Assembly: GCA_003139995.1 (NCBI GenBank)
Contig: PLIC01000221.1
Coordinates: 1-36,646, forward strand
Direction: 5' to 3'
Length of the DNA: 36,646 bases
Origin: Candidatus Acidiflorens stordalenmirensis
GTDB taxonomy: Bacteria; Acidobacteriota; Terriglobia; Terriglobales; Acidobacteriaceae
Part shown: in pieces, positions 13,090 through 36,293 of the stretch
Position numbering within the stretch: the first letter of the stretch is position 1
Layout of the letters: every line of letters begins with the position of its first letter
Program-made: the position numbers and the translations under genes
Notes under the pieces: generated by a model
What the model saw: only the letters and a program-made list of their open reading frames with translations
What the model was told of the DNA's origin: nothing
The model's database searches: none

Positions 13090-13540
13090 CGTAAACTGTT
13101 TCCCCCTGTGGACGTATGAGGAGCACCACAGGAAAACCGGGTCGAAATGAATTATTTTCGGCCGGCATACTTCCCATGTAGAGACGGGGCTTGCCCCGCC
13201 TCCGTGACCGCAGCAAAGCCAAGCCTCTACAAGAATTCAGCCGACGCCTGCAACGCAGTATGTCACAGGGCGAATAAAAAGCAAATAGCTTCCGCGGGGA
13301 CCATCTAGGCCTCAATGCATGGGTCTTTCGCTTGCATCAAGATGACAACCCGAATTTATGCCGCGAACTCGTGGGACACGACGCTAGGAGCTTGTTGAAA
13401 AGAACATTCCGTTGGCGTTTCACCGAACGCAGGCGACGAAGAATCCAGCATTCAGAAGTTAGCCCTGATTGGGCGTATCCCAATGAAAAGCTTTTGGCAC
13501 CACCGTGATCTCATCTGGGTGACGTGCGTGTCCGATATTC
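13090..13540. other. gap with repeat and no gene
   Basis: About 450 bases upstream of dnaB. It holds the dnaB promoter region (not resolved) and a palindromic repeat at 13178-13230. No open frame with coding character was found on either strand. Confidence 0.5.
13178..13230. repeat. palindromic repeat with GTAGAG/CTCTAC ends
   Basis: Outer arms GTAGAG (13178) and CTCTAC (13225) enclose a GGGGC-TT-GCCCC hairpin. The GTAG...CTAC ends and GC-rich arms match the style of the repeats around the RAYT gene at 33737-34491. Confidence 0.5.
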
Positions 13541-31570: not shown

Positions 31571-31708
31571 GGGTTCTCTCCTTCCGCAGGCTTACGGGAA
31601 GGGTGATACGGCCCGGAATGAGGATGAGTACAGGCTACAGGCCAGCCCAACATCACCTGCGAAACTTCTGATGCTAACACAGGGGGTGGGGCTCAAGGAA
31701 CAGCTCAT

Positions 31709-31728
31709 GTAGGGGCGGCCGTCCCTAC
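31709..31728. repeat. palindromic repeat between thrS and the EF-G gene
   Basis: GTAGGGGCGGCCGTCCCTAC, an inverted repeat with GTAGGG/CCCTAC ends like the RAYT-flanking repeats. It sits fifteen bases beyond the thrS stop and has no T-run. Confidence 0.55.
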
Positions 31729-31742
31729 ATCGGCATTGCCGA

Positions 31743-33689
31743 CTACAAAGTTGCGCTCTTCTCCACAATCAGCTTCTTGATCTTCTCCACAAACTCCGCC
31801 GTCGCCATGTCTTCGGTCTTCTCTTTCCCGCGGGTGCGGACGTTGACCTTATCGGCCTCAACTTCTTTGTCTCCCACCACCAGCAGGAACGGGACTTTCT
31901 GCATAGCGTGTTCACGGATTTTCGCGTTCATCTTTTCGTTGCGGCTGTCCACTTCCACGCGCACGCCTGCCGCCCGCAATTGCGACGCGACTTTTTCCGC
32001 GTACTCCGTATGGCGCTCGGCGATCGGGATCATCGCCACCTGAACCGGCGAGAGCCACACCGGGAACGCTCCGGCGTAGTGCTCGATCAGCACGCCGAAG
32101 AAGCGCTCGACCGATCCGTAGAGCGCGCGGTGGACCATCAGTGGCTGCTTGCGGGTGCCGTCTTCGGCTACGTATTCGAGCTGGAAGCGCTGCGGCAGGT
32201 TGAAGTCGAACTGCACGGTCGAGAGCTGCCACAGGCGTCCGATGGCGTCGACCAGCTTGATGTCGATCTTCGGACCGTAGAACGCGGCTTCACCAGGCAT
32301 TGTTTTGTATTCGATGTTCAGCCTCTTCAGCGCGTTTTCCAGCGAGTGGGTCCCGAGGTTCCACTGCTCTTCGCTGCCCAGGAAGCTCTTCTTGTCCTTC
32401 GGATCCCAGGTGGAAAGATCAGTCTGGAACTGGTCGAAGCCGAAGGCCTTCAGCACGGCGAGCGCGAACTCCAGGCAGCCGACGATTTCGTTTTCAATCT
32501 GCTCGGGAGTGCAGAAGATGTGCGCGTCGTCCTGCGTAAAGCCGCGCACGCGCAGCAGGCCGTGCATCACGCCCGAGCGCTCGTAGCGATAGACGGTGCC
32601 GAGTTCGCCGAGCCGCACCGGCAGATCGCGATACGACTTCAGCGAATCTTTGTAGATCAGGATGTGGCCCGGGCAATTCATCGGCTTGAGGCGATATTCG
32701 GCGTCGTCGAGCTCCATGGCGTCGAACATGTTCTGCGAGTAGTAGCCCTCGTGGCCCGAGGTGTGGAACAACTGGCGGCGCGACACGTGCGGCGTGCAGA
32801 CCAGCGAGTAGCCGCGCCGCAGGTATTCTTCGCGCATCCAGTCTTCCATCTCCTTGCGGATGATCCCGCCCTTCGGATGCCAGAAGATCAGCCCAGGCCC
32901 GGCGAGTTCCTGGATCGAAAACAAGTCGAGCTGTTTGCCCAGCACGCGATGGTCGCGCTTCTTCGCTTCTTCGATGCCGGTGAGGTAGGCGTCGAGATCC
33001 TTCTTCGAGAAAAACGACGTGCCGTAAATGCGTTGCAGTTGCTGGTTCTTTTCGTCGCCCAGCCAGTAGGCGCCGGCGATGTTGAGCAGCTTGAACGCCT
33101 TGATCTTTCCAGTCGAAGGCAGGTGCGGGCCGCGGCAGAAATCCTGAAACTTGCCGGTCTTGTAGATCGAAATTTTTTCATCGGGCTTCGTGAATTGCTC
33201 GATGAAATGGCACTTCATAAAGTCGCCTTCGCCCTTGAACTTTTCGAGCCCTTCCTTGCGCGGCAGAAATTCGCGCGCATAGGGCAGGTTTTCGCGGACA
33301 AGCTCCTGCATTTTCTTTTCGATCTTTTCGAGATCCTCGGGAGTGAACGCGGTCGGGCGATAAAAGTCGTAGAAGAATCCGTTCTCAGTCGCGGGCCCGT
33401 GGCCAAGCTTGGTCTCGGGAAAGAGTTCAAGCACGGCAGCGGCGAGCAGGTGCGCGGACGAATGCCGATAAACTTCAAGCGCCTCCGCATCCTTCTCAGT
33501 GATGATGTGCAGGTCGGCGTCTTTCTCAAGCGGCTGGGTCAGGTCGATCAGATCGCCGTTAGTCTTGGCGGCAAGAGCGGCGTCGGCCAGACGCGGGTTG
33601 ATGGACTTGGCAACGTCGAGCGCAGTCGCGCCTTTAGCGACTTCTTTGGTGCTGCCGTCGGGGAGCTTGAGATGAATGCTGTCGGACAT
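31743..33689 (-). CDS. thrS: threonyl-tRNA synthetase
   Basis: 648 residues from ATG 33689 (SDSIHLKLPDGSTKEVAKG), which has AAGG upstream; the frame to 33758 runs into a repeat. Domains: TGS (about 1-65), editing N2 domain with HSSAHLLAAAV and the YRHSSAH motif, class II catalytic core with the zinc ligands in MNCPGH, GVMHGLLRVRGFTQDDAH and MVHRALYGS, and the C-terminal anticodon-binding domain (VQVAMIPIAERHTEYAEKV). Role: charges tRNA-Thr and edits Ser-tRNA-Thr. Confidence 0.97.
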   Translation of the reverse strand: MSDSIHLKLPDGSTKEVAKGATALDVAKSINPRLADAALAAKTNGDLIDLTQPLEKDADLHIITEKDAEALEVYRHSSAHLLAAAVLELFPETKLGHGPATENGFFYDFYRPTAFTPEDLEKIEKKMQELVRENLPYAREFLPRKEGLEKFKGEGDFMKCHFIEQFTKPDEKISIYKTGKFQDFCRGPHLPSTGKIKAFKLLNIAGAYWLGDEKNQQLQRIYGTSFFSKKDLDAYLTGIEEAKKRDHRVLGKQLDLFSIQELAGPGLIFWHPKGGIIRKEMEDWMREEYLRRGYSLVCTPHVSRRQLFHTSGHEGYYSQNMFDAMELDDAEYRLKPMNCPGHILIYKDSLKSYRDLPVRLGELGTVYRYERSGVMHGLLRVRGFTQDDAHIFCTPEQIENEIVGCLEFALAVLKAFGFDQFQTDLSTWDPKDKKSFLGSEEQWNLGTHSLENALKRLNIEYKTMPGEAAFYGPKIDIKLVDAIGRLWQLSTVQFDFNLPQRFQLEYVAEDGTRKQPLMVHRALYGSVERFFGVLIEHYAGAFPVWLSPVQVAMIPIAERHTEYAEKVASQLRAAGVRVEVDSRNEKMNAKIREHAMQKVPFLLVVGDKEVEADKVNVRTRGKEKTEDMATAEFVEKIKKLIVEKSATL

Positions 33690-33736
33690 GGATAAGCCTT
33701 GTATTCCGCTGAATCTCTTAAGTTTATCATTTGCCC

Positions 33737-33820
33737 GCGTAGGGGCAGGTGCCCTCACCTGCCCTGCGGGGCGAAGCCCCGCAGCTCTCGCCTGCCCAGA
33801 CGAGGGCGTCTGGGCCTACG
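33737..33820. repeat. left repeat block of the RAYT unit
   Basis: Outer palindrome (GGGGCAGGTG...CACCTGCCC), a GGGGC-GAA-GCCCC hairpin, then the inner palindrome (GCCCAGACGAGGGCGTCTGGGC). The CTA within GGGCCTACG at 33816-33818 is the RAYT stop codon read on the minus strand. Confidence 0.8.
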
Positions 33821-34304
33821 TGGTTCGTGTTGGTGCGTACGGATTCGCGAATGGCTGATACCAGAGCCAGCGATAGTCGCGCCAATCGCTCACCAGTCCG
33901 CGGCGAACGGGATTTTCCAGAACATAGGCGATCTTCTGATCGAGGCTCTCCGCGGATCGCAAAACATGATCAAAGGATTCTTCCTGCCAGATTGTGCCGT
34001 GGCGATCAAGTCGCTGGTTGATCGCATGCGCTGAAGCGCCTTTAATTCCCTTCATGATCTCAGCCATGGAAACGACCAGTCGCCGTTGCTCATTGATCAG
34101 TGGTGTGAAAATAATGTGCACGTGGTCGGGCATGACCACCGCGACATGCAAGTCGTACCTCGTTCCGTGATCGTGACGGCAGCAACCCAGCACGATATCG
34201 CGGGCCCAGTCCGGTAGGATCCAACGATTCTTCGTAACAAAAGTGACGAAGTGCGGCTTAGCATCTCTCTGCAGATGCGGCAGATTGCGCCGGTAGAACG
34301 TCAT
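33816..34304 (-). CDS. REP-associated tyrosine transposase (RAYT, IS200/IS605-like)
   Basis: 162 residues from ATG 34304; a TTG at 34319 would add five residues. The HUH pair is H61-V-H63 in VVMPDHVHIIF, and the likely nucleophile is Y127 in DQKIAYVLENPVRRGLV, the classic RAYT context. HFVTFVTKNRW and TIWQEESFDHVLRS are family segments. Role: single-strand DNA nicking and joining at REP-type hairpins, thought to spread them. All catalytic residues are intact. The gene is boxed by matching inverted repeats. Confidence 0.9.
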   Translation of the reverse strand: MTFYRRNLPHLQRDAKPHFVTFVTKNRWILPDWARDIVLGCCRHDHGTRYDLHVAVVMPDHVHIIFTPLINEQRRLVVSMAEIMKGIKGASAHAINQRLDRHGTIWQEESFDHVLRSAESLDQKIAYVLENPVRRGLVSDWRDYRWLWYQPFANPYAPTRTT

Positions 34305-34322
34305 CCGAATCCACCACAAACC

Positions 34323-34491
34323 GCGTAGGCCCAGACGCCCTCGTCTGGGCAGGCGAGCGAAGCTCGCCTGCCCGCGTAGGCCCAGACGCCCTCGTCTGGG
34401 CAGGCGAGCGAAGCTCGCCAGAATCTTGGCGCCGGCAATAAGGCTACGGGGCTTCGCCCTGCAGGGCAGGTGAGGGCACCTGCCCCTACGC
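34323..34491. repeat. right repeat block of the RAYT unit
   Basis: Two 46-base direct copies (34323-34368 and 34374-34419), each holding the inner palindrome plus a GGCGAGC-GAA-GCTCGCC hairpin. A short spacer follows, then the GGGGCTTCGCCC hairpin and the outer palindrome ending CCCCTACGC at 34491. The block begins about nineteen bases upstream of the RAYT start and ends nine bases before the peptidase stop. Confidence 0.8.
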
Positions 34492-34499
34492 GAGTCGCT

Positions 34500-36293
34500 C
34501 TACCAGCCTACCTTCTTCCCCTTGTTCTGCTCATCCAGCCACTTCTGCAGCGGCGCGAAGTATTCCAGGATCGCGCTGGCATCGACCTGCCGTCCGCCGG
34601 TTAGGACCTCTAGAGCGTCTGGCCAGGGTTTGCTCTGGCCCATGGCGAGCATCTTGTTGAACTTCGCTCCCGCTTCCTTCGACCCGTAGAACGTGCAGCG
34701 GTTGAGCGGCCCCGTGTAGCCCGATTCGCGGCAGAGGGCGCGGTAGAACTGGAACTCCAGGATCTCCGCCAGGAAATAACGCGTGTAGGGTACGTTCGCC
34801 GCGACGTGATACTTCGCTCCTGGATCGAAATCGGCTTCACTGCGCGCCATCGGAGGCGCGATGCCCTGATACTTCAACCGCAGCTCCCACCATGCCTTGT
34901 TGTAGTCCGCAGGCGCGATCTCGCCGGAGAACACCTTCCATCGCCACTGGTCGATCATCAATCCAAAGGGAAGGAACGCGACGCGTTCGAGCGCCTGCTT
35001 CAGCAACTCCGGAATATCGTTGCTCGCCTGCGGCACGCTCTCCAGCAGTCCAACCTTGTGCAGGTATGCGGGCGTGATCGCCAGCGCGATAGAGTCGCCA
35101 ATTGCCTCGTGGAAGCCGTCATTGGCGCCGTTCTTAAACATGAACGGCTGGTCCTTGTAGGCGCGCTGGTACATGTTGTGCCCAAGTTCGTGGTGAATGG
35201 TGACGAAATCGACGCCGCGCACCTGGATGCACATCTTTACGCGCAAATCGTCCATGTTGTCGATGTCCCACGCGCTGGCGTGGCAGACCACGTCGCGGTC
35301 GGCGGGCTTGGTCAACAGCGACCGCTCCCAGAAAGTCGGCGGCAGCGGCGCGAAGCCCATCGACGTGTAGAAGCCTTCGCCATATTTCACCATGCCCTTC
35401 GCATCGAGATTTTTCTTCTTCAGCAGTTCCGTAACATTGACGCCGACGCCGCCTTTGTCCTCCGTCACTCCGAGCAGGTCGTAAATGTTCTCCCACTCCT
35501 GCGCCCACGGATTGCCCAGCAAATGCGCGGGGATCGGACCGTCGGGCGGAACGACGTTCGGGCCGTATTTTTCCGCCAGCTTCCAGCGCACGAACGTGTG
35601 CAGCGAAAGATAGAGCGGGCGCACCTGGTTCCACAAACGCTCCAGGTCGGCGGAAAATTCTTCCGGCGTCATGTCGTAGCCGGCGCGCCACAATACGCCT
35701 GTATCTTTGAATCCAATTTCTCGGGCGCCTTGATTGGAAAGATCGACAAATCTCGCATAGCGCTTCCGCATCGGCGGCGCTATCGCGTGCCATCCCGCCC
35801 ACACTTCTTTCAGCTCTTCCGGATCGTGGCTGCTCGACATCAGCTTCTCGATCGCCGTGATGTCCAGGCACTCGCCGTTCTTGCGGCAATACTTGCCCTT
35901 GCCGTAATCGCCATCGAGCGATACGCCGATCTCGGTCATTTCGCGGCGCAGCGCGGCATCTTTCGGCGCGGGCGCGGTGAGCGAAAGCTTCAGCAGCATG
36001 AATTTTCGCGCCAGCTCCGGCGAAAGCTTGAGGCCGTCAAAACGCTTGGCCTGTTCCACCAACTCGGTTGTGACGGCGGTGTCCTCATCAATTGCATCGG
36101 CCTCCATGGCCTCGGTGTCGTCGGTGATGAAATTCTCCTGTACCCATGAAGCACGGTTCACCTTGACGCTTAAATCGGCGAGCCTGCCCTCGGCCTTATC
36201 CATAAACTGCTGGGCTTCGGCAGCGGAGGGAGCTGTGTTCTGAGCGTAGACGTTCATAGCGAGAAATAAGAAAACGAGACCAAGGGACTTCAT
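34500..36293 (-). CDS. M2 family peptidyl-dipeptidase (angiotensin-converting-enzyme homologue)
   Basis: 597 residues with a signal peptide (MKSLGLVFLFLAMNVYAQ). AGGAGGTGTC precedes the ATG. The zinc motif is HELGH (368-372) with the third ligand E396 in GFHEAIGDSIAL. YKDQPFMFKNGAN before it and KYHVAANVPYTRYFLAEILEFQ after it hold the substrate-binding Lys/His/Tyr residues known from ACE. The whole catalytic domain is present in a single copy. Role: removes C-terminal dipeptides from peptides, probably in the periplasm. The physiological substrate is unknown. Confidence 0.95.
   Translation of the reverse strand: MKSLGLVFLFLAMNVYAQNTAPSAAEAQQFMDKAEGRLADLSVKVNRASWVQENFITDDTEAMEADAIDEDTAVTTELVEQAKRFDGLKLSPELARKFMLLKLSLTAPAPKDAALRREMTEIGVSLDGDYGKGKYCRKNGECLDITAIEKLMSSSHDPEELKEVWAGWHAIAPPMRKRYARFVDLSNQGAREIGFKDTGVLWRAGYDMTPEEFSADLERLWNQVRPLYLSLHTFVRWKLAEKYGPNVVPPDGPIPAHLLGNPWAQEWENIYDLLGVTEDKGGVGVNVTELLKKKNLDAKGMVKYGEGFYTSMGFAPLPPTFWERSLLTKPADRDVVCHASAWDIDNMDDLRVKMCIQVRGVDFVTIHHELGHNMYQRAYKDQPFMFKNGANDGFHEAIGDSIALAITPAYLHKVGLLESVPQASNDIPELLKQALERVAFLPFGLMIDQWRWKVFSGEIAPADYNKAWWELRLKYQGIAPPMARSEADFDPGAKYHVAANVPYTRYFLAEILEFQFYRALCRESGYTGPLNRCTFYGSKEAGAKFNKMLAMGQSKPWPDALEVLTGGRQVDASAILEYFAPLQKWLDEQNKGKKVGW

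Follow-up and report, generated by a model that had tools for sequence, protein, structure and literature searches.

The window, that is, the whole 36,646-nt stretch of DNA analysed here (contig PLIC01000221.1 of Candidatus Acidiflorens stordalenmirensis), contains a small transposase gene lying between those for an M2 family peptidase (34500–36293, minus strand; PF01401, 750 bits) and threonyl-tRNA synthetase (thrS; 31743–33689, minus strand; tRNA-synt_2b and other domains). The gene, at 33816–34304 on the minus strand with its ATG at 34304, encodes a 162-aa protein of the RAYT (TnpA-REP) family. It scores 88.1 bits against the NCBIfam equivalog NF047646 (REP_Tyr_transpos; cut-off 80) and 30.3 bits against Pfam Y1_Tnp (PF01797; cut-off 23), and the sole solved relative found for it was TnpArep (PDB 4er8; E = 8.6e-4). 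Its HVH motif and the tyrosine within KIAYVLENPV line up with 4er8 and with related RAYTs, and from this alignment the HUH and Tyr residues are probably catalytic here. In the same genome Pfam identifies 9 Y1 transposase genes, and the window RAYT has 11 matches. A second RAYT of this genome (L024, G000:C171) is bounded by GGACAGCC-type REPs and has Cys (KVECLLENPV) at the position of the aligned Tyr in other RAYTs.

The gene is enclosed by two concentric pairs of inverted repeats, as the earlier note had described. The outer pair (33736–33785 and 34443–34492) extends over 50 nt and is 96% complementary, with a perfect part of 32 nt rather than the 31 given in that note. The inner pair is perfect over 34 nt, between 33787–33820 and 34324–34357 and again between 33787–33820 and 34375–34408; the duplication of the right inner copy, also recognised previously, is a direct repeat of 48 nt, 100% identical and 51 nt apart. 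On the thrS side, an outer REP (33736–33785, plus strand), consisting of a GTAG foot, a 9-bp hairpin with a CCCT loop and then a hairpin with a GAA loop, is followed by an inner REP inverted to it (33787–33823, minus strand), the two together forming a REP doublet (33736–33823). On the M2-peptidase side, two direct copies of the inner REP (34321–34368 and 34372–34419, both plus strand) are followed by an inverted outer REP (34443–34492, minus strand), which closes the second doublet. The inner REPs on both sides were delimited by repeat comparison and folding, and directed repeat hits fell at 33739 (outer, plus), 33794 (inner, minus), 34325 and 34376 (inner, plus) and 34464 (outer, minus). The order is therefore outer(+)/inner(−), RAYT, inner(+) twice and outer(−), and it is because the two doublets are mirror images that they look like two nested boxes. 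The outer type, GGGGCAGGTG, occurs once per doublet and the inner type, GGCCCAGACG, once or twice. The REPs are built from GTAGG and a 9-bp hairpin with the loop CCCT, followed by a second hairpin whose loop is GAA or, often in dispersed copies, GCA; the stems vary from type to type while pairing is kept. The stop codon of the RAYT gene, TAG at 33816–33818, sits within the GTAG foot of the inner REP.

Folded as single-stranded DNA, as the earlier note had proposed, the arms gave strong hairpins: −37.7 kcal/mol for 33735–33826 (shuffle mean −20.3, z −6.8), −20.6 kcal/mol for 34318–34372 (z −5.4) and −44.8 kcal/mol for 34372–34495 (z −6.0). For each of the three blocks none of 200 shuffles folded as well, which excludes chance. 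In the predicted fold of the left doublet, the GTAG and CTAC feet are paired and enclose the hairpins. For both 33735–33826 and 34372–34495 the prediction is of an inverted REP pair folding into a single structure, as in a REPIN (work reportedly by Bertels and Rainey). No Rfam family reached its gathering threshold anywhere in the window. The ‘related palindromes’ to which the earlier note had pointed at 31709 and 13178 do exist. The first, at 31707–31730 between thrS and a gene named by eye as EF-G-like, is a 24-bp GTAG/CTAC palindrome with 12-nt arms (92%). It may be a worn REP doublet. It lies in the interval where a relative, G003, has its RAYT. The second, at 13177–13231, is an imperfect inverted repeat with TGTAGAG/CTCTACA ends and 16-nt arms (81%).

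The host genome is a 5.49-Mb draft in 313 contigs. Exact matches to the outer hairpin number 10, of which 8 lie outside the locus, whereas the 3 exact matches to the inner hairpin are all at the RAYT locus; the reversed-pattern control gave 0 for each. The idea that the arm sequences would recur elsewhere in the genome thus holds for the outer type and not for the inner. The outer type therefore supplies the dispersed cognate REPs expected of a RAYT, and the inner type, its strict-pattern copies being confined to the locus, is a putative RAYT substrate. A broader hairpin pattern matched 79 copies in this genome (reversed control, 0), 35 of them of one GTGG type. Across genomes it was matched in 26 of 61, this one included (reversed control, 0 in all), with 21 of 24 in the genus, 5 of 13 among others in the family and 0 of 24 in other families. 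Among the matches listed in a scan of named genomes were many Acidobacteriaceae and Candidatus Sulfotelmatobacter contigs, and also Prevotella, Ruminococcus, Clostridia, Verrucomicrobiia and others. Contigs of Prevotella, Ruminococcus, Clostridia and Cerasicoccus (L163, L168, L171, L187, L228 and others) carry the same GTAGGG...GCCCTC...CC hairpin, by eye without the same second hairpin.

Placement could be counted for the 77 of the 79 copies with enough flank, and was compared with random positions taken from the same loci, repeats not excluded. Coding on the same strand at both sides was found for 6 of 77 copies (random 0.369), and neither side was coding for 40 of 77 (random 0.181). Sixteen of 77 followed a same-strand gene and had noncoding DNA beyond (random 0.108), as against 3 of 77 in the mirror arrangement (random 0.116); when every copy with a same-strand gene upstream was counted, whatever lay beyond, the total of 22 of 77 did not exceed random (0.309). 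The placement of these 77 copies is REP-like. The disparity between 16 and 3 is also what might be seen if the palindromes were mere transcription terminators at gene ends, unlinked to the RAYT, but we regard this as very improbable, in view of the conserved GTRG foot, the two-hairpin unit with compensated stems, the specificity of arms to each RAYT locus and the copies translated through inside enzymes. In 4 of the 19 copies with a reading frame entering from the left, the foot TAG is the stop codon of the upstream gene (L008, L086, L059 and L099), L008 being the window RAYT. Head-to-head doublets of less than 150 nt among the 79 strict-pattern copies amounted to 4 distinct ones, 2 of them outside the locus, so that by this pattern the genome gives no clear sign of REPs dispersing as doublets. 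Eight MITE-like copies on eight contigs (L298–L305) share an identical 110-nt stretch, have TA ends and imperfect inverted repeats, and enclose the GTGG hairpin core. In 21 left-end matches, inspected with flanks of as much as 1500 nt, no parent transposon for the TA-ended copies came to light.

The earlier note had held that RAYTs are usually single genes near REPs. This is contradicted by PMC2817692, PMC6006769 and PMC8266576, according to which flanking inverted REPs are the rule: inverted REPs are said to flank RAYT genes without exception, the E. coli gene having REP clusters on both sides (PMC2817692; Nunvar 2010), and the E. coli REPtron is given as two REP types in three inverted pairs (PMC6006769). 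Inverted GT(A/G)G-headed REPs likewise occupy the flanks here. We assembled 38 RAYT loci (30 of 101 genus matches and 8 further loci of the host genome) and, after 3 had been dropped for short flanks, scored the two arms of the remaining 35 against each other. The median score of a locus's own pair was 59, compared with 18 for 1190 mismatched arm pairs, a control whose tail is raised by the related REP families within it. The arms matched each other above the 95% control level at 31 of 35 loci and above the 99% level at 14 of 35, with 4 loci (L139, L143, L144 and L154) below the 95% level. The nearest RAYTs, in G011 (69% identical) and G003 (64%), have their own REP pairs on both sides, with other stems, and by eye repeat the doublet-RAYT-doublet layout. 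Boxing by inverted repeats is therefore not special, being the ordinary layout for the RAYT family, and the locus is real and ordinary in kind. On the RAYT identity of the gene, the nested palindromes and the link between gene and arms, the earlier reading was right.

Given the RAYT family match, the folding arms, the dispersed outer copies and the locus-matched arms, the locus is almost certainly a REPtron, with a doublet of inverted REPs on each side of the RAYT. As in the REPtrons described in PMC2817692, PMC6006769 and PMC8266576 (Corneloup 2021), inverted REPs flank the gene; it differs from those descriptions in that a second hairpin (GAA/GCA loop) stands behind the first in each REP, and in that the inner type is locus-confined under the strict pattern. 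It shares with the REPIN as described in PMC3116915 two inverted REPs that fold together with their spacer beside a RAYT, whereas dispersed doublets are few in this genome under the strict pattern. The TIRYT/TIRtron elements of Koribacter and other Acidobacteria (PMC3733652) are likewise acidobacterial Y1 transposases with inverted repeats; the acidobacterial repeats are called unrelated to GTAG REPs there, whereas the arms here are GTAG-headed hairpins with genome-wide copies. To the RAYT family the locus adds a well-resolved REPtron with locus-specific arms.

By analogy with the family, the likely mechanism is that the REPs of such a REPtron would fold into hairpins whenever they are exposed as single-stranded DNA, as can happen on the lagging strand. 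The HUH/Tyr enzyme would then recognise a hairpin with a GTAG foot, nick beside it and rejoin the strands, such that REPs might be spread or rewritten in trans while the source copies remained next to the gene. The mechanism by which RAYTs spread REPs is described as still open (PMC8266576).

The earlier note had inferred from the symmetry of the arms that gene and repeats moved or evolved as one unit. Evolution together is supported by the arm matches at 31 of 35 loci and by the layout in G011 and G003; movement is not, as judged from the single copy of the unit and from what occupies the equivalent site in relatives. The full 755-base unit has no second copy in the genome or the genus, the best paralogue of its RAYT being 61% identical, and there are no near-identical full-length copies of the kind that marks an IS, the best homologue in 24 genus genomes being 69% identical. 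A thrS match was present in 22 genus genomes, the host included, and 23 thrS loci were compared. The M2 peptidase gene and thrS are close together in the host and four relatives (gaps of 125–184 nt in the relatives), and among the 23 loci only that of the host has a RAYT between them. In these four relatives the site, where the earlier note had proposed to look for an empty counterpart, is without the gene, but REPs are present in three of them. G017 has an intact GTAG hairpin by hairpin search; in G018, G015 and G019, for which that search was negative, worn REPs (G018, G015) and a degraded hairpin (G019) were seen by eye. In G004 and G006, REPs adjoin thrS (by eye) and an M2 match is absent upstream. 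G003 has a different RAYT on the opposite side of thrS, toward the EF-G-like gene; at this site G011 shows, by eye, the left doublet but no RAYT. None of 17 relatives' loci that reach the 3′ end of thrS has a RAYT in this interval.

A comparable picture was obtained around hslU. Within the flank examined, a RAYT with REPs was found downstream of hslU in the host genome, 1 of 21 loci, and no RAYT was matched there in the other 20. In six relatives (G006, G009, G012, G013, G015 and G021) the same lipoprotein-like gene follows hslU (by eye); no GTRG hairpin was found in the next 320 nt in the five of these that were searched, nor by eye in G009. In G003, G004 and G016 a RAYT lies about 2 kb off on the 5′ side of hslU (52, 54 and 46% identical to the window RAYT, respectively). 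RAYTs are therefore seen 5′ of hslU in some genomes (G003:C65, G004:C96, G016:C27) and 3′ in the host (C274), and a two-sided pattern is seen round thrS too (host and G003). A neighbour search with TyrS returned mostly distant matches and does not enter the comparison. RAYT loci thus come and go in the genus, some round the same genes, and REPs can persist without it. Gain of gene and arms together is possible, because a RAYT with REPs follows hslU in the host while relatives with the same next gene are without both; gain by flanking-gene exchange, by RAYT action and by transfer are indistinguishable here.

We think it improbable that the gene and its nested arms transpose as a block, like an IS with composite ends. 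The species-by-species variation of RAYT sites (M2–thrS, hslU and thrS–EF-G-like) and the near-perfect arms are what such a unit might produce, but it would not readily account for a closest same-genome RAYT only 61% identical, with no second copy, or for REPs without a RAYT at the M2–thrS site of G017 (intact), G018 and G015 (worn, by eye) and in the G011 doublet at G003's RAYT site (by eye). Arm identity could also be kept by gene conversion or RAYT-guided copying, the gene not moving. Arms that are alike within a RAYT locus and unlike between loci, and a right inner copy that is a 100% identical tandem duplication, make this a candidate, although one we rate below an even chance; one genome per species does not allow it to be distinguished from arms that recently arose from one source. 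Species-specific RAYT sites, together with REP sites with and without the gene, render gain and loss testable within one genus.

In our view the REPs found in frame matter more than the locus. Some REPs are translated within ordinary proteins, and these are of a known kind: intragenic GTAG REPs, UvrD included, have already been reported (PMC3733652; Di Nocera 2013), likewise in frame in repair genes and with the GTAG foot giving stop codons, in an article whose main text does not contain the words covariation or compensatory. Seven in-frame REPs, chosen for long open frames, were aligned to solved structures. Six had significant homology on both sides, the REP peptide falling in an unaligned or poorly aligned part (an RlmI-like protein, PcrA/UvrD, MnmG, NadD, MutS2 and a COG1565 protein); in the seventh, a 3-methyladenine glycosylase, the side after the REP scored only 8 bits. 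The MnmG linker (L274–L293; host copy G000:C288:3954) holds at least three REP families, in both orientations across species, by eye and with 3 of 20 rows left out of the parsing (G011, G012 and G013); no REP was seen there by eye in G008, G015 and G002.

The pcrA/uvrD linker was parsed in all but 1 of 19 genus sequences and 7 of 28 from other genera, and perfectly paired stems of 7 bp or more were present in 14 of the 18 parsed in the genus and 3 of the 21 parsed elsewhere; stem length alone is a weak measure, since in several genomes stems of 9 or 10 bp also turned up in control pieces of pcrA. Of 47 linkers, 14 had a peptide motif and 12 were used, G008 and G010 being dropped with the hairpin in another register. 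The motif fixes frame and orientation and the rows were picked by a DNA pattern resembling the arms, both of which favour intact in-register hairpins. In these 12 selected linkers, which span five genera and share one hairpin, 96.9% of pair cells were paired, compared with 91.7% in shuffles. Double changes from A-T to G-C affected two pairs, each of them in 4 sequences (8 cells versus 3.0), and these paired changes alter amino acids. The covariation score was 0.227 versus 0.118, with 0 of 500 shuffles as high and slid controls at or below 0.165. The number of pairs with a double change (2 versus 1.8; 396 of 500 shuffles as high) and that of further pair types (2 versus 3.8; 500 of 500) gave the hairpin no support. 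For synonymous recodings, the codon-weighted probability of keeping as many pairs was 0.0002 to 0.0055 per sequence.

A reading that we put forward tentatively, at slightly less than an even chance, is that REPs like those flanking the RAYTs of the genus have been captured in frame in linkers of conserved enzymes, and that at least one of them, in pcrA/uvrD, has been inherited over five genera of the family, its hairpin preserved through paired substitutions, each altering two amino acids. The hairpin in the gene or mRNA, and not only the peptide, would then be selected, or else continually rewritten by RAYT activity. Maintenance of the pcrA hairpin is a lead and not proof, because resemblance guided the choice of rows, the sequences are related to one another, and fresh REPs may have been inserted repeatedly at this one linker site. 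Should the genera indeed be maintaining the hairpin, this would be a case of a mobile palindrome turned into a conserved feature, at the nucleic-acid level, of a gene for DNA repair. The palindromic elements of Rickettsia, as cited in PMC3733652, are likewise in frame in ordinary proteins; those of the CGTC kind are described without a dedicated transposase, whereas several of the intragenic repeats here look, by eye, like the arms of RAYTs in the genus. A rule that a linker REP should correspond to one of the RAYT arms in its own genome, tried by eye only, failed for G015 and was rejected. The pcrA/uvrD linker REP itself is represented by L395–L413 and L420–L447 (host copy G000:C274:5318); the REP there is of the GGACGGGCG type in the host and in five others, and in G018 its orientation is opposite.
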